A stretch of DNA of 64,000 nt from an uncultured Rhodospirillaceae bacterium (lineage in GTDB: Bacteria; Pseudomonadota; Alphaproteobacteria; UBA8366), in contig CAJWLM010000014.1 in the NCBI GenBank assembly GCA_913043025.1, positions 1-64,000 on the forward strand, read 5' to 3'. Positions 33,395-63,037 of this stretch are shown here, in pieces. The position numbers and the translations under genes were made by a program. Below the pieces are notes generated by a model that was given only the letters and a program-made list of their open reading frames with translations, was not told the origin of the DNA and did no database searches. Position 1 is the stretch's first letter. Every line of letters starts with the position of its first letter.

Positions 33395-33735
33395 AGCGCC
33401 ATCTTACGCGTAAGTCCATCTCACCGAACGTTACAAGTGGGGGGCTTCTGTTGCCCGGTGCCCCCCGAACCGCGCTTGCTTAACCGAAGTTAGGCAGCGA
33501 GGCGGGCTTCGCCCGCAAAGTTGTCGTTGGCATTTAACGACTATAGCCCGATAACGGTGGTACAATGCCGGGAACAAAGTTTGCCTTTACTACATGCGTC
33601 GATCCTATTTCGCCCCCACAGATGCACCATTTTCATCTCAAAGATGGTGTATTGGTGGAGGCGCCGGGTACCGCCCCCGGGTCCGCAACGCTTATTCCGC
33701 AAACCATTTAGCGCCATAGCCGGCGAGCCGGCACT
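33395..33735 (-). ncRNA. ssrA: Two-piece (circularly permuted) tmRNA
   Basis: tmRNA rescues stalled ribosomes and tags their products. On the minus strand the acceptor piece comes first, ending in CCA at 33653. A 35-base spacer (33618-33652) with a small hairpin follows, then the mature 5' end GGGGGCG at 33617-33611. GGGGGCG pairs over seven bases with CGCCTCC before the discriminator A and CCA, which shows the permuted order directly. The tag frame is at 33531-33490 and reads ANDNFAGEARLAA followed by TAA. A pseudoknot-like GGGGGGC/GCCCCCC pair lies beyond it. The outer ends are approximate; the 3' end of the coding piece could lie a little past 33395. Confidence 0.93.
33490..33531 (-). other. 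tmRNA tag reading frame
   Basis: GCC is the resume codon; the encoded tag is ANDNFAGEARLAA, ending in TAA at 33490-33492. With the alanine charged on tmRNA this gives AANDNF at the N-terminal side, the SspB-binding part, and LAA at the C-terminus, the ClpX signal. Confidence 0.9.
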
Positions 33736-33738
33736 CTA

Positions 33739-33767
33739 ATTATAGGTTGAATCGGAAAAGATATAAA
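33739..33767 (-). promoter_or_regulatory. ssrA: Sigma70-type promoter of ssrA
   Basis: On the minus strand a perfect TATAAT occupies 33744-33739, with TTTATA at 33767-33762, 17 bases apart. This puts transcription start near 33732, just ahead of the acceptor piece. Confidence 0.6.
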
Positions 33768-41014: not shown

Positions 41015-42244
41015 ATGGTACGAGTCGATAGTGCGCCACCACTCACTTTTCGTGAGCAGGGTGTTGTGGCATTGATCAGCACAGGGCATGGTGTGACCCA
41101 CTACTTGCATTCCATTGTTCTAGTTGTCAGTCCGCTTATAAAAGAAAAATTCAATCTTTCTTATACTGAGCTCGGGCTATTCTTTACTATCTACACAACT
41201 GGAAGTTTTCTGTCGGCGATTACCGGGGGGCCTTTTGCTGATCTTACAGGCCGGAGGCAATTATTACAGGTGCTCTCGATAACGATTTTATCGTTAGCGG
41301 TCATGTTTCTGGGTTTTGCTAATGAATATGCAGTTCTTCTGGTCATTGGTGTATTCATAGCTTTTTCTAACCAGCTCTGGCATCCTGCCGCTATTCCTTA
41401 TCTCGCCACACGTTTCCATTCACATCGCGGTTATGTCATGTCTATTCACGGCATGGGTTCAAATATCGGAGACGTCTTGGTGCCACTCCTGGTTCCCGCA
41501 ATGCTTACTGGTAATTATATAATCATTCAGCTTGAGCCGATGTCTTGGCGGAATGTAATGGTTATAAACACGTTACCTGGTTTATTTATACTTCCCCCGC
41601 TAATATTAAGAGCGGTGCGGGAACGGGCTGGGCATGGCCATGAGACTAGCTTAAATCTTAGGCACTACATAGCAGGCATTATCGACCAAGGGAAAAATAA
41701 GACGGTCCTGGGGATAGGTTTAATAGCTGGCTTGAGGACGACGGCACAATCAGGATCACGAAATTTCCTTCCGGTATACTTGGTGGATCAATTTAATTGG
41801 AGCCTCACCCAAGCGGGAATTGCACTTCTATTGCTTAATTTGGGGGGATCGGTTGCTGCGGTGCCAGCAGGTATTGCTTCAGATCGCTGTGGTCGCCGAA
41901 AGGTTATGCTGATTGCAATTGCCGCAGCCACAATATTCATATTATTGTTGCCTCTCTTACAGGATGAATTTTTAATAGTTATCGGAATTTGTCTAGTTGG
42001 GTTTTCAATCTATGCCACGCGTCCAGTATTAATAAGCTGGATGATGGACACCGTTGAGAGTGGGTTTCGGGGTACTGCTACCAGTCTAATGTTTGCAACT
42101 CAGTCTGCTTTTTCTATACCGAGCATGGCAATAACAGGCGTCATAGCAGACATATACGGCATCGCTGCAATTTTTTATTGGTTTGCAATCATGCTTTTGT
42201 TTGCCAATGCAGTAGTATTCGTTTTGCCGAAGGATAATCCCTAA
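41015..42244 (+). CDS. MFS transporter, tandem array copy 1
   Basis: The 409-residue protein has about 12 membrane spans. It shares with the next four genes a first-span motif, here 'GHGVTHYLHS', the MFS loop motif 'FADLTGRRQ' between spans 2 and 3, and 'SDRCGRRKV' between spans 8 and 9. A late signature 'ATRPVLISWMMDTVESGFRGTA' is also shared. The overall pattern recalls the fosmidomycin-resistance-like MFS group. The substrate is unknown. It lies 240 bases after degP and is probably the first gene of the transporter run. Confidence 0.88.
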   Translation: MVRVDSAPPLTFREQGVVALISTGHGVTHYLHSIVLVVSPLIKEKFNLSYTELGLFFTIYTTGSFLSAITGGPFADLTGRRQLLQVLSITILSLAVMFLGFANEYAVLLVIGVFIAFSNQLWHPAAIPYLATRFHSHRGYVMSIHGMGSNIGDVLVPLLVPAMLTGNYIIIQLEPMSWRNVMVINTLPGLFILPPLILRAVRERAGHGHETSLNLRHYIAGIIDQGKNKTVLGIGLIAGLRTTAQSGSRNFLPVYLVDQFNWSLTQAGIALLLLNLGGSVAAVPAGIASDRCGRRKVMLIAIAAATIFILLLPLLQDEFLIVIGICLVGFSIYATRPVLISWMMDTVESGFRGTATSLMFATQSAFSIPSMAITGVIADIYGIAAIFYWFAIMLLFANAVVFVLPKDNP

Positions 42245-42361
42245 GCGCCGGCAGTAACTGTATTCAGCGGTTTTTGCATTATTCCCAATTCAGGCCTAAT
42301 GTCCTGTGCTTAGTTACTGAAATTTTCAGTAGCAGCATACTTTGTAGAGTATACTAAGCCT

Positions 42362-43579
42362 ATGCAAAAAATTCTTGCTGCATTCAAACTCCGCGATCCC
42401 GGCCCTGCTTTCGGAATGTTAGCCGGGCATGCAGCGACCCATTGGATGATCGGGGTTTTTTACATTCTTCTGCCTTTTATAAGGGAGGAATATCAATTTA
42501 CTTATTTACAAATTGGTTGGCTGCTTACCTCATTTGAGGCGGGAGTGTTGATTTTTAGCCTCGTAAGTGGCCCCGTGGTAGATATGTCCGGTCGACGTGT
42601 GGTCTTCCAGGTATGCGCTTTAGCTGTCGGCGGATTGGCAATGGTAGCATTTTCCGTGGCGCCGAATTTTTTATCATTCTGTTTTCTAGCTGCATTAGTG
42701 GGCGGCATGACACAATTTTGGCATGCTCCGGCTACCGCTTTCCTCTCATTTTATTACACCTCCAACTGGGGTTATGTAGTTGGTCTTCACGGCATGGGTG
42801 CAAATATAGGAGAGGCGATTGGTCCTCTGGTAGCTGGGATGGTGATTGCATCAACGACTTGGCAAATGGGAGCGCTTGTTCCAGCAGCAGCATCAATTTC
42901 TGCTGCGATAATGCTATTTATTTTTCTAATTCCCAAAGACATAAATAAGGGAGAAGAGCAACCGAGGGGCATGTCATTTGAACAATACCTTCGTGGCTTT
43001 GTAAGTCTACTAAGGAATTTCGATGTCATTATTCTTTGCTGCATGATGGGAATGCGCTCAACGGCACAACTGCTGATAAGAACGTTTGTGCCATTATACA
43101 TGCGTGATGTAATGGGAGCAGGTGCATCTCTAATCGGCACTGTTTATGCGGTGATGCACATAGGGGGCATGATAGCTAATCCAATCGGTGGTTTGGCGTC
43201 AGACAACTACGGTCGTAAACCAATTTTGATATTGGCATTGTTGGCAGCAACAGCCATTATCTTGGTTATGACGTTTGTTGGGAACGAGATTTTGTTTGTG
43301 ATTGGAATAGGTTTTCTAGGATTCACGCTTTATGCGACAAGGCCTGTGACACAGAGTTGGATTTTAGATATGGTTCCACAAAAATTACATGCTACTAGCG
43401 TGGCAGTTCGCTCAGTCATTCAATCCTTCTTTGGTCTTGCGGCCCCGCCTATAGGCGGCTGGGTAGCAGATAGTTACGGCCTTTTGATGGTGTTTTATGG
43501 GATTGCGATATTATTACTTATGGCTAATGTTCTTACTATTTTTGTTCCTGAGTATAAGAAACCACCGGGTGCAACATAA
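42362..43579 (+). CDS. MFS transporter, tandem array copy 2
   Basis: The 405-residue protein has the same fold and landmarks as its neighbours: 'AGHAATHWMIG' in span 1, 'PVVDMSGRRVVFQ' in the span 2-3 loop, 'ASDNYGRKPIL' in the span 8-9 loop and 'YATRPVTQSWILDMVPQ' later. It is the only copy with Ala in place of Gly after the GH pair, and the only copy that lacks the conserved FRG after the late signature (it has LHATS). It follows copy 1 by 117 bases, with no obvious terminator. Confidence 0.88.
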   Translation: MQKILAAFKLRDPGPAFGMLAGHAATHWMIGVFYILLPFIREEYQFTYLQIGWLLTSFEAGVLIFSLVSGPVVDMSGRRVVFQVCALAVGGLAMVAFSVAPNFLSFCFLAALVGGMTQFWHAPATAFLSFYYTSNWGYVVGLHGMGANIGEAIGPLVAGMVIASTTWQMGALVPAAASISAAIMLFIFLIPKDINKGEEQPRGMSFEQYLRGFVSLLRNFDVIILCCMMGMRSTAQLLIRTFVPLYMRDVMGAGASLIGTVYAVMHIGGMIANPIGGLASDNYGRKPILILALLAATAIILVMTFVGNEILFVIGIGFLGFTLYATRPVTQSWILDMVPQKLHATSVAVRSVIQSFFGLAAPPIGGWVADSYGLLMVFYGIAILLLMANVLTIFVPEYKKPPGAT

Positions 43580-43828
43580 ACCAACATCATTTATTGCTCT
43601 GAAACACTAATTCCTGCTAGAGATAGTCCGAGGAGCATCCTCGCTTCGTGCGTCTAAAACTATCACTAGTGTTGATTTCACTAGAACAAATTTATCTAAG
43701 AATGGATCAGTTATTTTCCGATCTGGAACTGGCGTTTGGTTGCAGGTGGGCCCGATTTTATACCCCCACAATTGGAAATTATACAAAAAGGTGAACTGGT
43801 AAGTGGATGGCAACTTGAGGGCAAGAAT

Positions 43829-45046
43829 GTGAGCCAAAAACGAAATTCACTAGGTGGCAAACCTTTTATGCCAGTAATATTACTATCGTTTGGGCATGGT
43901 GCTACGCACTATGCCTTTGGCACGTTCATTATACTTGTGCCGTTCATCAAACAGGCATTGGGGCTCACGTATACGGAAGCCGGTTTAATCGTCTCTACAT
44001 TTCATGTTACGGGGTTTTTTGTAAACTTTGCCACAGGATTGGCTGTTGATATGAGTGGGCGCCGGGTTTTGTTCATTATCTTATCTGCTCTTATCTGCGG
44101 CATAAGTATGTTGGCGCTGGGGTTTTCTCCATCTTTTCTCGTGATATGCATTTTCGCTGGGATGTTGGCTATTGGCGTACAAGGTTGGCACCCGCCTGCT
44201 TTTGCTTTCTTGGCAGAAGAATATGAGAATGCGAAGGGGATGGTGTTTTCTATTCATGTTGTCGCTGCAAATATTTCCGAAGCGATTGCCTTCCAGGTTG
44301 GCGGATTGATAGTGACATTAATCGGCTCATGGCAAGTTGCCGCTATGACGGGAGCAGTTCCCGGGTTATTTGCAGCTTTATTGTTGGCCGCTCTTCTTCT
44401 GCATAAAGAAAAAGCGGCTAATGGTAAGCAGGGTAAGGCGATGGGATTGAAGGCCTATCTTGCTGGGTATGTTAATTTATTAGCAAATATTCCGGCAATG
44501 ATGGTTTGCGTTGTTAGTTCATTGCGAACGATGGCGCAAAATGGATTGCTAGTTTTTATTCCACTTTATTTGATCGATGTGCTGGGCGTAAGTGCCGCCC
44601 TAATGGGAACAGGAATGTTAGCAATGCAAATAGCTGGTGGTGTGGCTACACCAATTGGCGGGTATACCTCAGATCGTTTCGGGCCACGGCCAGTATTGTT
44701 TGTATGTATTACGATTACGTCTTTAGCAATAATTTTAGCCACAAATATCACTGACCCGACCACTTACATTTTAGTTATTTCATTGGTTGGTTTTGTACTC
44801 TTTGCAATGCGGCCTGTGCTCCAGCGTTGGATAGTAGATCTTGTTCCGGGCGAATTTCGAGGCTCAGCTACAAGTGTCATGTTCAGCATGCAAGCTGCTG
44901 GCAATGCCTTAATACCGATAGTAGGGGGGTGGATTGCTGATAACAGGGGTATGTTGGATGTATTCTATTTTTTTGCTGCGATTATGCTTGGAGCGAACAT
45001 TTTGACTTTTTTCTTGCCAAAAACTAATCCTGCGAACGGGAGTTAA
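43829..45046 (+). CDS. MFS transporter, tandem array copy 3
   Basis: I place the start at the GTG at 43829 (405 residues), which has GAGG eight bases upstream and gives 21 residues before the conserved 'GHGATHYAFG', as in the other copies. The frame extends back to a TTG at 43736 without conserved sequence. Landmarks are 'LAVDMSGRRVLF', 'TSDRFGPRPVLF' and 'FAMRPVLQRWIVDLVPGEFRGSA'. Copy 4 begins 21 bases after the stop. Confidence 0.87.
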   Translation: MSQKRNSLGGKPFMPVILLSFGHGATHYAFGTFIILVPFIKQALGLTYTEAGLIVSTFHVTGFFVNFATGLAVDMSGRRVLFIILSALICGISMLALGFSPSFLVICIFAGMLAIGVQGWHPPAFAFLAEEYENAKGMVFSIHVVAANISEAIAFQVGGLIVTLIGSWQVAAMTGAVPGLFAALLLAALLLHKEKAANGKQGKAMGLKAYLAGYVNLLANIPAMMVCVVSSLRTMAQNGLLVFIPLYLIDVLGVSAALMGTGMLAMQIAGGVATPIGGYTSDRFGPRPVLFVCITITSLAIILATNITDPTTYILVISLVGFVLFAMRPVLQRWIVDLVPGEFRGSATSVMFSMQAAGNALIPIVGGWIADNRGMLDVFYFFAAIMLGANILTFFLPKTNPANGS

Positions 45047-45067
45047 ACCACAACATGTCCTCGTTTT

Positions 45068-46339
45068 ATGGTAGCTGAACCTGATTATTTTGAAGAAAAA
45101 AAGCCAGGCAACGGAACGCTTGCTTTGCTTTGCTTTGGGCACGGGGCTACACATTTCGTTTTTGCGGCGACTATCATGTTGGTGCCCTACATTCGCCAAA
45201 CCTTAGGGCTTAACTATCTTGAAGTTACGAGTCTCGGAACTCTTTATTATGCAGCAGCCTTCCTTGCAAACTTTTTGAGCGGGTATCTGGTAGATGCATC
45301 GAAAAAATATATGGCGGTTCAGCTTGCATCACTAACCTTTGCTGGTGGAGGCATGATCGTATCGGGAATCTCAGGTTTTTACTTGGACGGATCCCAAGTA
45401 TTTGTAATGTTAGCAATTGGGTGGGCTCTCTGTGGAATGGGAAATCAAGCATGGCATCCAGCAGCTTTCGCTTATCTTGCAAAATACTATCAAGACCGCC
45501 GTGGATTTGTATTTTCGATGCACGTGGTATCGGCAAATGCCGGCGATGCAATTTTCCCATTAATCGCAGGTTTCTTGCTCGGGCATATTTTCGTGGAGGC
45601 ATTCGGCCACCAAATGTGGTCTCCAGTTTCCCTGGTTGCGGGCATCCCATGTTTGTTGACGGCATCAATAATAGTTTTTTATTTGGTAAAACATAGTGAT
45701 GAGGTTGTTACAGTGCGATCTCAGGTGATGAGCGCTGAGTCATATTTAAAAGGTTATATCGCATTATTACGTAACGGCCATGCTATGCTCCTGGCACTAG
45801 TTGGAGGACTTCGGAATGCTTCTCAAACAGCATTGCTCTATTTCCTGCCACTTTACATGGTTGATGTGCTGTTTAGCGGCCCAATTTTAGTAGGAACAGC
45901 ACTCACGCTACTTCAAGTTGGCGGAATGATTAGTGCGCCGATTGCTGGCATTGCTTCGGATCGTTCGGGTGAGCGTCCAGTCGTATTTAGCTGTCTAGCA
46001 ATTACGACTGTGGTTCTGGGCTTGGCACTTTTCGTAGAAAACCCAACGTATTTTGTGTTTTTAATTGCGCTTGTGGGTCTTGCACTTTACGCGGTGCGCC
46101 CGGTTGTCCAGAGTTGGATGATGGATCTTGTGTCACCAGATTTTCGGGGTTCTGCAACAAGCGTCATGTTTGGTGTACAGTCACTAATGAATGTTATTTT
46201 TCTATTCATTGCTGGCTATGTTGCTGACCGATTTGGCCTTGTGGCCGTTTTTTACATCATTACTACTGTGATTTTATTTGCAAATATTCTTACGTTTTTT
46301 CTGCCAAAGCCCCACAACGTCAGGCAGGCTAATGCTTAA
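45068..46339 (+). CDS. MFS transporter, tandem array copy 4
   Basis: The 423-residue protein is the longest of the five. Span 1 reads 'GHGATHFVFA'. The span 2-3 loop, 'YLVDASKKYMAVQ', has lost the usual arginine pair. The span 8-9 loop is 'ASDRSGERPVVF', and 'YAVRPVVQSWMMDLVSPDFRGSA' follows. An extra stretch, 'GFYLDGSQVF', before span 4 accounts for part of the added length. Its stop overlaps the start of copy 5 by eight bases. Confidence 0.87.
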   Translation: MVAEPDYFEEKKPGNGTLALLCFGHGATHFVFAATIMLVPYIRQTLGLNYLEVTSLGTLYYAAAFLANFLSGYLVDASKKYMAVQLASLTFAGGGMIVSGISGFYLDGSQVFVMLAIGWALCGMGNQAWHPAAFAYLAKYYQDRRGFVFSMHVVSANAGDAIFPLIAGFLLGHIFVEAFGHQMWSPVSLVAGIPCLLTASIIVFYLVKHSDEVVTVRSQVMSAESYLKGYIALLRNGHAMLLALVGGLRNASQTALLYFLPLYMVDVLFSGPILVGTALTLLQVGGMISAPIAGIASDRSGERPVVFSCLAITTVVLGLALFVENPTYFVFLIALVGLALYAVRPVVQSWMMDLVSPDFRGSATSVMFGVQSLMNVIFLFIAGYVADRFGLVAVFYIITTVILFANILTFFLPKPHNVRQANA

Positions 46340-47555
46340 ATTTGGCCTTGTTGAGGCTCTTAAAATCAAAGGACAGACGTCTATAATTTTGGTCGGGCTT
46401 GGCCATGGTGCGGTCCACTGGGTCTACATGGTCTTCACCGTGTTGACGCCATGGATTAAGGTAACCTTCTCTCTCGATTATTCCGAGATTGGCATGCTTC
46501 ATGCGATTTTTCACATTGCCTCTTTTGCTGCCAATGCGGTTAGCGGGGTAATGGTTGATATCTCTGGAAAGCGCGTAATATTTCAGGTTATCGCTGTTAT
46601 GTCGGGCGGTATAGCCATTCTCGTATGCGGATTATCGGGTGATTTCTTAATTTTAGCTTTAATGATGGTGGTTATTGGCGCATCCAATAATTTATGGCAC
46701 CCGGCTGCTCTTGCATTTCTATCCGAGGAATATCCCGGAAATAAGGGCTACGCACTTTCCGTTCACTCTATTGGAGCAAGTCTCGGTGATATTCTGGCTC
46801 CATTGATCGCCGTCTCTTTGCTGGTGGGGTTTTGTCAGTTGAGCTGGCAGGTGACCGCTTTTACCAGCGCCGTGCCAGTTTTTATTGTAGGTTTGGCATT
46901 GGCTATTTTGGTGTCACCAAAAGATATTAATAAAGATGTTGGTGGAAAAAAATGTGGCATGGATAAACGTCAGTACATGGCTGGCCTTGTCTCGCTCTTT
47001 AAAAATAGAGCTATATTGGGCCTTTCAGCAATGGCTGCCTTTCGAACTTCAGCGTTGTTCGTTATTTTTTTTGCCCTTCCCTTATACTTGGTCGACAATC
47101 TTGGCTTATCGGAAAAGGCGCAAGGTCTTGCGATGGCAATGATGCAGATTGGTGGCTTTGTAACTGGGCCACTTGCAGGAACATGGTCTGATAGGATTGG
47201 TCGGCGCCCCATCGTCTTGGGCGGCCTATCTGTTATTACGATTGCAATCGTTTGCCTCACTCTTATTAGCGATGCAGTTGTATTTGTATGTGGGATAACC
47301 GTTTTGGGGTTTGCTCTCTATGCAATTAGACCTGTTACTCAAGCGTGGATGATGGACCTCGCACCAATGGGGCATGGTGCCTCGGCAGCTAGCGTAATGT
47401 TTGCGATGCAAAGTGCGTGGACACCGGTATTGGTTGTAACTAGCGGCTTTATTGCAGATAAATACGGTCTGATATATGTTTTTTATCTTGTCGCCGCGTC
47501 AATGCTTATGGCAAACATCGTAGCGTATTTTTTGCCTAGCGGCAAAAATCCTTGA
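46332..47555 (+). CDS. MFS transporter, tandem array copy 5
   Basis: I use the ATG at 46332 (407 residues), inside the last codons of copy 4; the frame upstream to 46278 lies wholly within copy 4. Landmarks are 'GHGAVHWVYM', 'VMVDISGKRVIFQ', 'WSDRIGRRPIVL' and 'YAIRPVTQAWMMDLAPMGHG'. The overlap suggests coupled translation of copies 4 and 5. It ends convergently with serB, the two coding regions overlapping by 20 bases. Confidence 0.87.
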   Translation: MLKFGLVEALKIKGQTSIILVGLGHGAVHWVYMVFTVLTPWIKVTFSLDYSEIGMLHAIFHIASFAANAVSGVMVDISGKRVIFQVIAVMSGGIAILVCGLSGDFLILALMMVVIGASNNLWHPAALAFLSEEYPGNKGYALSVHSIGASLGDILAPLIAVSLLVGFCQLSWQVTAFTSAVPVFIVGLALAILVSPKDINKDVGGKKCGMDKRQYMAGLVSLFKNRAILGLSAMAAFRTSALFVIFFALPLYLVDNLGLSEKAQGLAMAMMQIGGFVTGPLAGTWSDRIGRRPIVLGGLSVITIAIVCLTLISDAVVFVCGITVLGFALYAIRPVTQAWMMDLAPMGHGASAASVMFAMQSAWTPVLVVTSGFIADKYGLIYVFYLVAASMLMANIVAYFLPSGKNP

Positions 47556-60761: not shown

Positions 60762-62066
60762 ATGTTATTTGTTTTCTACGAATCAATTTTAAGCCGGTGT
60801 GCGTTGGTTGCTGCTATTCTGTTTTTTATGGGTGCCGACACTTCTGCTGTCGAAAAAATCAAAAATCCTTTCATTAATGATGCAACTACCGAAGTTGAAA
60901 ATACCAACCGTGGACCAGGGGTTAGAGTTGGAGATGCAGAAACAATATCTGGTAATGTTTTTGGCAAAGGTTTGGGTAAGCGACTCAAGAGCGGTGACCC
61001 TATAAGATACCTCGACACAGTTAGGGTAGGTCTAAGTAGCGCAGCTGCACTGCGGCTTGTTGATAATACAGAACTTGTAATGGGTGAAAATAGTTCGCTT
61101 TCAATAAATAATCTTATTTTTAACCCCCAGCCGGGAAACGCAGAGGGGGTCTTAAATATGACTTCTGGGTTTCTGCGCTACACCTCAGCGGGGCGTCATT
61201 CCAACATAATTATACAAACGCCTTTGGCGACGATTGGCATACGAGGCACTATTTTTGATATTCTAGCATCTTCTACTCAAGTTGAGGTTGTTGTCCACGA
61301 AGGGAACGTAGCTGTAAATAGCAATACCAAAAGAGCCTCATTGCGATCCGGTGAAGTAATTAAGTTGAATGAAGATGAAACTTTTGTGATTTCAAAAGTC
61401 CCTAGTTTGAAAATAAAAAAAGCAGCACAGAACGTCTCACAAATTCTTAAACTGAGTAAGCATAGCTTTGAAAAATTCAGGACTTATGATATCAGTAAAG
61501 ATATAAAAACGTTAAATAAAGTTCCTGAAAAGTGCAGTAAAAAACTATCAAATATTATAATTCCGAAATACTTACGAACCTTTGATAAATCAAAATTAAT
61601 AATAATGAGATTAAATACTGGCGACATATTCATCGAGTTACGTGGAGATATTGCTCCGACGCATATTAAAAGAATAAAAAAACTTATAAGACAATGCTTT
61701 TACGACGGATTACATTTTTTTGACGTAAAGGCAGATTTCGCTGCTATATCAGGTGACCCATTGAATACTGGTGAAGGTGGATCAGGAAAAACATTAAAAT
61801 CGGAATTCTCGAAAATTCCTTTTATCGCTGGCAGCGTCGGAATGATAAGAGATAAAAAAAACCCAGATAGCGCTGACAGTCAATTTTTTATTGCACTTAA
61901 TCCATTACCTCATCTTACTGGAAAATACACGAAATGGGGCTTTGTGGTTCATGGTATGGACAAAATTAGAAAATTACCCATAGGAAGACCCCCACAGAAG
62001 CCCGGATATATTGTGGCGGTACAATTGTTGTCTGACTTACCGTTTGCAAATATTTCAGATCGTTGA
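60762..62066 (+). CDS. FecR-domain protein fused to a degenerate cyclophilin domain
   Basis: The 434-residue protein has a hydrophobic N-terminal signal or anchor (about 10-28), then a FecR-type beta domain (about 60-210) with 'IGIRGTIFDILAS' and 'VVVHEGNVAV'. A basic linker comes next, and a cyclophilin-like domain (about 275-425) follows with 'MRLNTGDIFIELRGDIAPTH', 'AGSVGMIRDKKNPDSADSQFF' and 'KWGFVVHGMDKIRKL'. Active cyclophilins have FHRVIxGFMxQ. Here the matching stretch is FFDVKADFAAI, so the catalytic arginine and the glutamine are gone. AAGGA precedes the ATG. No fecI-like sigma factor or TonB receptor is near. Probably a periplasmic binding or scaffold protein; the role is unknown. 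Confidence 0.8.
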   Translation: MLFVFYESILSRCALVAAILFFMGADTSAVEKIKNPFINDATTEVENTNRGPGVRVGDAETISGNVFGKGLGKRLKSGDPIRYLDTVRVGLSSAAALRLVDNTELVMGENSSLSINNLIFNPQPGNAEGVLNMTSGFLRYTSAGRHSNIIIQTPLATIGIRGTIFDILASSTQVEVVVHEGNVAVNSNTKRASLRSGEVIKLNEDETFVISKVPSLKIKKAAQNVSQILKLSKHSFEKFRTYDISKDIKTLNKVPEKCSKKLSNIIIPKYLRTFDKSKLIIMRLNTGDIFIELRGDIAPTHIKRIKKLIRQCFYDGLHFFDVKADFAAISGDPLNTGEGGSGKTLKSEFSKIPFIAGSVGMIRDKKNPDSADSQFFIALNPLPHLTGKYTKWGFVVHGMDKIRKLPIGRPPQKPGYIVAVQLLSDLPFANISDR

Positions 62067-62248: not shown

Positions 62249-63037
62249 ATGTATTTAGACAAAAAAACCAAACTTTACATTCTGATTTTTTTGTTTGTCG
62301 TAATGTTCCTATGCACGATATTCATGCCGCAAATTCCTGTAAGTCAAAGTTACCACGAATTTTCTGATACGAGACCTTGTTTGGGTATCCCCAATTTCGG
62401 CGATGTCATATCCAATTTTCCTTTTGCTCTATTCGGAATCCTGGGGGTCATCACGGTGATAAAAATGTCTGGGGGGAAAATATTTTTGAAACATTATCAT
62501 TGTTGGCCGTACTTAATATTTTTTTGTGCGGTGATCCTAGTCTCATTGGGATCAAGCTATTACCACTTAAACCCATCTAATGGACGCCTGTATCTCGACC
62601 GTGCCCCTATTTTGCTGGGTTTCATATGCTTGTTTGCCGCATTTTTTGCTGATCGGGTTAATCAGCAAATCGGCATATTTTTATTATTCCCGTCCCTGCT
62701 TACACTTGGATGTGCAGCTTTTCTTTGGGATTTCAGCCAATTGCACTTGGGTGGAGACCTACGTTTTTATGCGCTATTGCAAATTTATACATTTGTAGCA
62801 CTACCCTTGATTTGCTGGTTTTTCCCCAACAACTATTACACGGGCAATCGACACTTGTACATGATACTCAGCTGGTATGCCGTTGCCAAAGTGTGCGAAG
62901 TTTATGATCAAACGATATTTGAAAGTCTGGCAGGATTGATCAGTGGCCATACGCTTAAGCATTTTGTTGCATCAATCGCAGTATTTGTTGTGATCGGAAT
63001 GTTACGTAGGGCTCAACGCAGCCTTCCGATCAATTAG
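62249..63037 (+). CDS. Ceramidase-like membrane protein of the CREST superfamily
   Basis: The 262-residue protein has about seven membrane spans and the scattered metal-hydrolase residues of the alkaline ceramidase/CREST group. These are Ser and His in 'LGSSYYHLNPSN', Asp in 'LYLDRAPIL', and an HxxxH pair in 'GHTLKHFVA' near the C-terminus. 'YHEFSDTRPCLGIPNFGDVISN' near the N-terminus resembles the family's ER homologues. It may hydrolyse an amide or other lipid bond in the membrane; the substrate is unknown. The oxidoreductase gene starts 19 bases downstream. Confidence 0.75.
   Translation: MYLDKKTKLYILIFLFVVMFLCTIFMPQIPVSQSYHEFSDTRPCLGIPNFGDVISNFPFALFGILGVITVIKMSGGKIFLKHYHCWPYLIFFCAVILVSLGSSYYHLNPSNGRLYLDRAPILLGFICLFAAFFADRVNQQIGIFLLFPSLLTLGCAAFLWDFSQLHLGGDLRFYALLQIYTFVALPLICWFFPNNYYTGNRHLYMILSWYAVAKVCEVYDQTIFESLAGLISGHTLKHFVASIAVFVVIGMLRRAQRSLPIN

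Follow-up and report, generated by a model that had tools for sequence, protein, structure and literature searches.

The fusion protein and its altered pocket

The window analyzed here, a stretch of 64,000 nucleotides from an uncultured Rhodospirillaceae bacterium, contains a gene (60762..62066, forward strand, stop codon included) whose uninterrupted, ATG-initiated open reading frame (ORF) encodes a protein of 434 amino acids (aa) that joins a FecR domain to a cyclophilin domain with a degenerate active site. The cyclophilin half is under purifying selection and is not decaying. We posit that the protein is probably a periplasmic two-module binding adaptor, composed of a FecR solenoid and a pseudo-peptidyl-prolyl isomerase (pseudo-PPIase) cyclophilin that would bind a fixed partner or peptide without isomerizing it. 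An earlier note on this DNA had placed both domains in one polypeptide, and the Pfam matches agree: FecR (PF04773) covers aa 85–183 (61014..61310; E 1.1e-12, 48.7 bits) and Pro_isomerase (PF00160) covers aa 281–408 (61602..61985; E 3.4e-26, 92.8 bits), each above its curated cut-off (24 and 21.7 bits, respectively), so that domain searches miss neither half. Homologues with the same architecture support the gene as a unit.

The cyclophilin domain (aa 278–428, 61593..62045) is assigned to its family by the Pfam match, by a structure model, and by Foldseek matches to other cyclophilins. Its pocket, numbered here after human CypA, carries the substitutions H54F, R55D, M61A, and Q63I in the strands FFDVKADFAAISGDP (aa 319–333, 61716..61760) and A101I in a later strand, and retains Phe60, Phe113, and Leu122. 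Only Phe60 and Phe113 thus remain of the set expected in an active PPIase (Arg55, Phe60, Met61, Gln63, Ala101, and Phe113). The stand-alone cyclophilin of the same genome, which retains the canonical FHRV..FMAQ core, reads FHRVIDGFMAQTGDP at the positions of FFDVKADFAAISGDP, and the stand-alone cyclophilins of the examined genomes read FHRVxxGFMAQTGDP there. The alignment bears out the observation of the earlier note that an FHRVI...FMxQ core has given way to FFDVK...FAAI in a domain that keeps its SQFF strand (SQFFI, aa 373–377).

Among 11 fused cyclophilin domains, Met61 (to Ala, Val, or Ile), Gln63 (to Ile, Glu, or Val), and Ala101 are replaced without exception, and Arg55 is replaced in eight (by Asp in five, Asn in two, and Ser in one); Phe60, Phe113, and Leu122 are kept in most homologues. 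The three copies that retain Arg55 (L011, L013, and L014; two read FHR and one FFR) all carry Q63E, M61V, and A101K. The loss of the catalytic arginine that had been noted earlier therefore holds for the window protein and does not extend to the whole family, and an intact arginine is confined to these three otherwise altered homologues. Arg55, Phe60, Met61, Gln63, Ala101, and Phe113 are all conserved in 69 of 69 stand-alone cyclophilins recovered in the same searches, a set chosen by a loose motif (F53, H/Y/F at position 54, V56, and F/I/L at position 60) that did not require the arginine, methionine, or glutamine. Arg55 and Gln63 have both been described as essential for cyclophilin catalysis (PMC4898713); because both are replaced in the window protein, with a reversal of charge at position 55, catalysis by the fused cyclophilin appears unlikely.

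A full-length AlphaFold2 model built on 18 sequences is mostly confident for the cyclophilin half from aa 261 onward, with a predicted local distance difference test score (pLDDT) mostly of 80–97 that is lower in a single loop and at the C-terminal end. The two halves were also modelled from separate alignments, because the joint fragment alignment misaligned them. The best bacterial structural matches of the cyclophilin model, identified with Foldseek, are AquaCyp293 (5ex2) and AquaCyp300. The FecR module (aa 53–200, 60918..61361), modelled alone, reaches a pLDDT of about 85 over its core in the one good model of five; Foldseek and VIA match it to the putative anti-sigma factor BDI_1681 (4m0n, Z 16.0) and to PupR (6ovk, Z 15.7), and it forms a β-solenoid like the juxta-membrane (CJM) subdomain of PupR, in agreement with its Pfam assignment. 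The first 75 residues of the same model also resemble the cell-surface anchoring domain 5ix9 (Z 5.7; profile E 0.0016).

The N-terminus is a probable signal peptide (aa 1–30, 60762..60851; SILSRCALVAAILFFMGADTSA-VEK), presumably cleaved, that was recognized by reading the sequence beside its homologues, in which signal peptides are clearer than in the window protein. The two modules are separated by a fast-evolving linker (aa 201–277, 61362..61592) that contains a single predicted helix (aa 217–231) and whose end, from about aa 261, is confidently modelled beside the cyclophilin domain. Cys258 (61533..61535) lies in this linker and Cys312 (61695..61697) just past the cyclophilin domain's first helix. 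This pair is found in five of five proteins of the window's genus (g1) and its sister genus (g2) and is absent in the other six homologues; a disulfide between linker and barrel in these two genera is plausible because Cys312 follows the first cyclophilin helix.

Distribution, descent, and genomic context

Two further genomes of the genus share this architecture (81–82% identity), and within the GTDB family nine of 11 genomes encode full-length homologues (genera g1, g2, g4, and g5, with two copies in genome G006); none was found in genus g3 (two genomes, 96–98% complete). A second carrier is a distant family of the same class, Alphaproteobacteria (f29), represented by two genomes, one (G067) with an intact 388-aa fusion (L095:1793-2956) and the other (G198) with the two halves in different frames (L096:1258-2823, reverse strand) owing to a one-base shift within the linker that may be a sequencing error. 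This distribution across the genus, the family, and a distant family rules out an assembly or chance fusion. A profile of the FecR half scored 240–274 bits against the fusions and no more than 99 bits in the rest of the order, whose other families yielded just stand-alone cyclophilins and unrelated FecR proteins. A search at strict thresholds covered 385 genomes from the class, 43 from the order, and 398 from the phylum, and outside the GTDB family it found the fusion only in f29; these are overlapping samples and not censuses, and more distant or independent fusions are possible, since the thresholds were strict and the groups sampled in part. The next-best FecR proteins (L107–L112) have other C-termini, and the closest FecR-only proteins (L107:1363-2253 and L108:1252-2427) carry a GRLTGY..DP...GW or GY C-terminus where the cyclophilin sits in the fusions. 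As a separate observation, many viral contigs (IMG/VR; L143–L220) encode FecR-domain proteins with an ATIG[IV]RGT motif. No record in the plasmid collection covers 80% of the query, and none of the open papers searched names FecR together with cyclophilin. Each domain belongs to a known family; neither those papers nor the plasmid collection contained the two combined with an active site that is lost throughout.

In a phylogenetic tree, all fused cyclophilin domains fall on the same side of a branch with support values of 83/75 when all rows are included; without the most divergent row, the same branch is supported at 94/88 and is recovered in 94% of bootstrap trees. The positions of L095 and L018 are unsure due to their long branches. 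Because the fused copies share one side of this branch and Arg55 is replaced by Asp, Asn, or Ser in different branches, the pattern fits a single fusion event after which Arg55 was lost on separate occasions. The second copy in G006 (L018:151-1374, reverse strand) is very divergent, has also lost Phe60, Phe113, and Leu122, and has a lipobox-like LSAC motif at its N-terminus.

The ratio of nonsynonymous to synonymous substitution rates (dN/dS, Nei–Gojobori) between species of the genus is 0.13–0.17 for the cyclophilin half, 0.10–0.16 for the FecR half, and 0.42–0.64 for the linker; the pair of genomes from the sister genus gives, in the same order, 0.19, 0.05, and 0.23. For comparison, the ratio is 0.07 for the stand-alone cyclophilin, 0.05 for rodA, and 0.004 for mreB. 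Identity between g1 and g2 is 83% in the rebuilt pocket strands, 68% across the whole cyclophilin half, 59% in the FecR half, and 40% in the linker. The altered pocket is thus maintained and not drifting, given the purifying dN/dS values and pocket strands that are more conserved between genera than the remainder of the domain. We reject a pseudogene or an assembly artefact on the basis of the family-wide homologues and the purifying dN/dS. The suggestion of the earlier note that the cyclophilin half is a binding module without isomerase activity is supported by this selection and by the repeated loss of pocket residues.

The gene order mreBCD-mrdAB-fusion-ceramidase-like is shared by no genomes other than the three of g1. 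Going by ORF sequences alone, the fusion gene of g2 lies between hisD-like/cNMP-binding and Sel1-like genes, that of g5 has topoisomerase-like and glutamine-synthetase-like neighbors, and the second copy of G006 adjoins flagellar genes. An envelope role had been suggested earlier from the position of the gene after mreBCD-mrdAB; with this order confined to the genus, that suggestion is not supported, and we reject a mechanism drawn from the neighborhood. Consistent with what had been noted before, there is no sigma factor or receptor gene among the neighbors (mrdAB and the ceramidase-like gene). The membrane protein encoded 3' of the fusion gene in all three genus genomes (62249-63037, forward strand) matches alkaline ceramidase (PF05875) at a level below the threshold (E 4.7e-4). 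A scan of the region for promoters and terminators returned about as many sites as shuffled sequence. Elsewhere in the window, an apparent tandem paralogue array (41015-47555, forward strand) consists of five consecutive ORFs of 405–436 aa that encode major-facilitator-like proteins sharing HGATH or HGAVH close to their start, and a two-piece (permuted) tmRNA gene (33399-33747, reverse strand) encodes the tag ANDNFAGEARLAA.

A proposed role and its alternatives

As a binding adaptor, the protein would, judging from its sequence, be exported to the periplasm. There, the FecR module may serve as a protein-binding β-solenoid like the one that accounts for half of the periplasmic surface of PupR/FecR, and the cyclophilin domain, which keeps its fold and has lost the residues that position and polarize the X-Pro bond (R55D, Q63I, M61A, A101I, and H54F), could hold a fixed partner or peptide without isomerization. 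The two modules may bind this partner together or separately. The layout mirrors the periplasmic half of anti-sigma regulators (solenoid, linker, and second small domain) with a cyclophilin in the place of STN; in PupR, an 11-residue linker joins the solenoid to STN, and both are required for transducer binding (PMC7186176). The Cys258–Cys312 pair, new in the window's genus and its sister genus, may fasten the linker onto the barrel of the cyclophilin. Human cyclophilins offer a precedent, with PPIL2 and SDCCAG-10 binding a peptide without isomerizing it through a divergent pocket and PPIL4 carrying an asparagine at the position of Arg55 (PMC2911226).

Several results weigh against a binding adaptor. 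The FecR half is poorly predicted in the full-length model (pLDDT 30–40), and a usable FecR model was obtained only for that half on its own, so that the models do not give the relative placement of the two domains; the gene neighborhood is not conserved beyond the genus and points to no partner; and AquaCyp300 has weak, selective isomerase activity though six of its nine pocket positions differ (PMC4898713). This last result also speaks for an alternative in which the fused domain is still a prolyl isomerase, slow or specialized, that acts through other pocket residues and that the FecR module directs to a client in the periplasm. The retention of Phe60, Phe113, and Leu122 in the window protein and most homologues and of Arg55 in three homologues would fit such an enzyme; however, AquaCyp300 keeps Arg55, Phe60, and Gln63 (PMC4898713), and the window protein has replaced both residues described as essential, the glutamine being lost in every fused copy, and we therefore regard residual isomerase activity as unlikely. 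We are more doubtful still of an envelope anchoring or retention module akin to those of large adhesins, in which the cyclophilin would be a spacer or lid and the FecR part would lie in an outer-membrane secretion path. The similarity of the start of the FecR module to 5ix9 suggests such a role, as does the only other FecR protein of the genome, which is large, contains repeats, and resembles an RTX-type adhesin whose N-terminus is similar to a retention module, but a Z score of 5.7 is within the range of common arrangements, the match to the NCBIfam retention module NF033682 is not significant (E 0.13), and the fusion is only 434 aa long and lacks repeats or a type I secretion signal.

Two further explanations were already disfavored. 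Decay of the gene, with a functionless cyclophilin half that drifts, would account for the many lost pocket residues, the frameshift that parts the halves in G198, and the divergence of the second copy in G006; we consider it very improbable in view of the dN/dS of the cyclophilin half (0.13–0.19), the conservation of the rebuilt pocket between genera, and ORFs that are intact at all ten family loci except for a near-terminal stop in L014. Least credible of all is a FecR-type anti-sigma regulator or cell-surface signaling relay. The Pfam FecR match and the fold match to PupR are what such a protein would show, but it would also be expected to have DUF4880, a transmembrane helix, and a C-terminal STN domain, for which the protein has no Pfam match, and, in a FecIRA system, an adjacent ECF sigma gene and a TonB-dependent transducer, neither of which was found. 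Searches of the genome, which is 97% complete, returned no match to the DUF4880, STN, or TonB-dependent receptor families. FecIRA-type signaling is very unlikely here because these matches are absent and because the genome's other FecR protein is adhesin-like, and we reject FecR signaling on the same absence of matches.

Extending the adaptor reading to the family, we suggest tentatively, with confidence just short of even, that these bacterial proteins are periplasmic pseudo-cyclophilins in which a FecR-fused cyclophilin replaces STN and has repeatedly lost catalysis, providing a new two-part recognition surface for an outer-membrane or envelope client. The fused series (Arg55 kept with Q63E, or replaced by Asn, Ser, or Asp) beside intact stand-alone paralogues offers a natural comparison for studying at what point a cyclophilin turns into a domain that only binds, and a role of the FecR fold outside sigma-factor signaling is suggested.

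Comparison with known systems

The AquaCyps of marine Alphaproteobacteria (AquaCyp293 and AquaCyp300, PDB 5ex2 and 5ex1) are the closest relatives in sequence among proteins of solved structure (5ex2, E 2e-20). They are described as periplasmic cyclophilins with an extra domain and a disulfide between extension and barrel formed by two conserved cysteines (PMC4898713), and one of them resembles the fusion in its degenerate pocket and has low activity. Unlike the fusion, they have a composite NIC domain (the termini and a 40–50 residue insertion between strands 4 and 5) and no FecR domain, and both keep Arg55 and Gln63, which the window protein lacks. An alignment with 2mvz over aa 280–408 contains no such insertion, and in the match to 5ex2 about 60 residues of AquaCyp293 stand opposite 13 residues of the window protein; we therefore reject the identification of the fusion as an AquaCyp. 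The stand-alone periplasmic cyclophilins of Alphaproteobacteria share 43–48% identity with the cyclophilin halves over about 150 aa, but their active site is kept in all 69 sequences and in none of the fused domains.

The periplasmic domain of PupR/FecR (CJM and STN; 6ovk; PMC7186176) has the same β-solenoid as the FecR half, and there, too, a linker and another small domain come after it. However, in the fusion this domain is a cyclophilin and not STN, there is no anti-sigma domain, a probably cleaved signal peptide stands in contrast to the transmembrane helix of PupR/FecR, and no TonB transducer was found in the genome. Compared with a LapA-type retention module, the protein gives E 0.13 against NF033682 and Z 5.7 against 5ix9. 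The human PPIL4, PPIL2, and SDCCAG-10/CWC27 proteins (PMC2911226) are, like the fusion, multidomain proteins that combine a cyclophilin fold with a divergent pocket, whereas they are eukaryotic and have unrelated partner domains; the catalytically silent cyclophilins in the literature consulted for comparison are all such human multidomain proteins.
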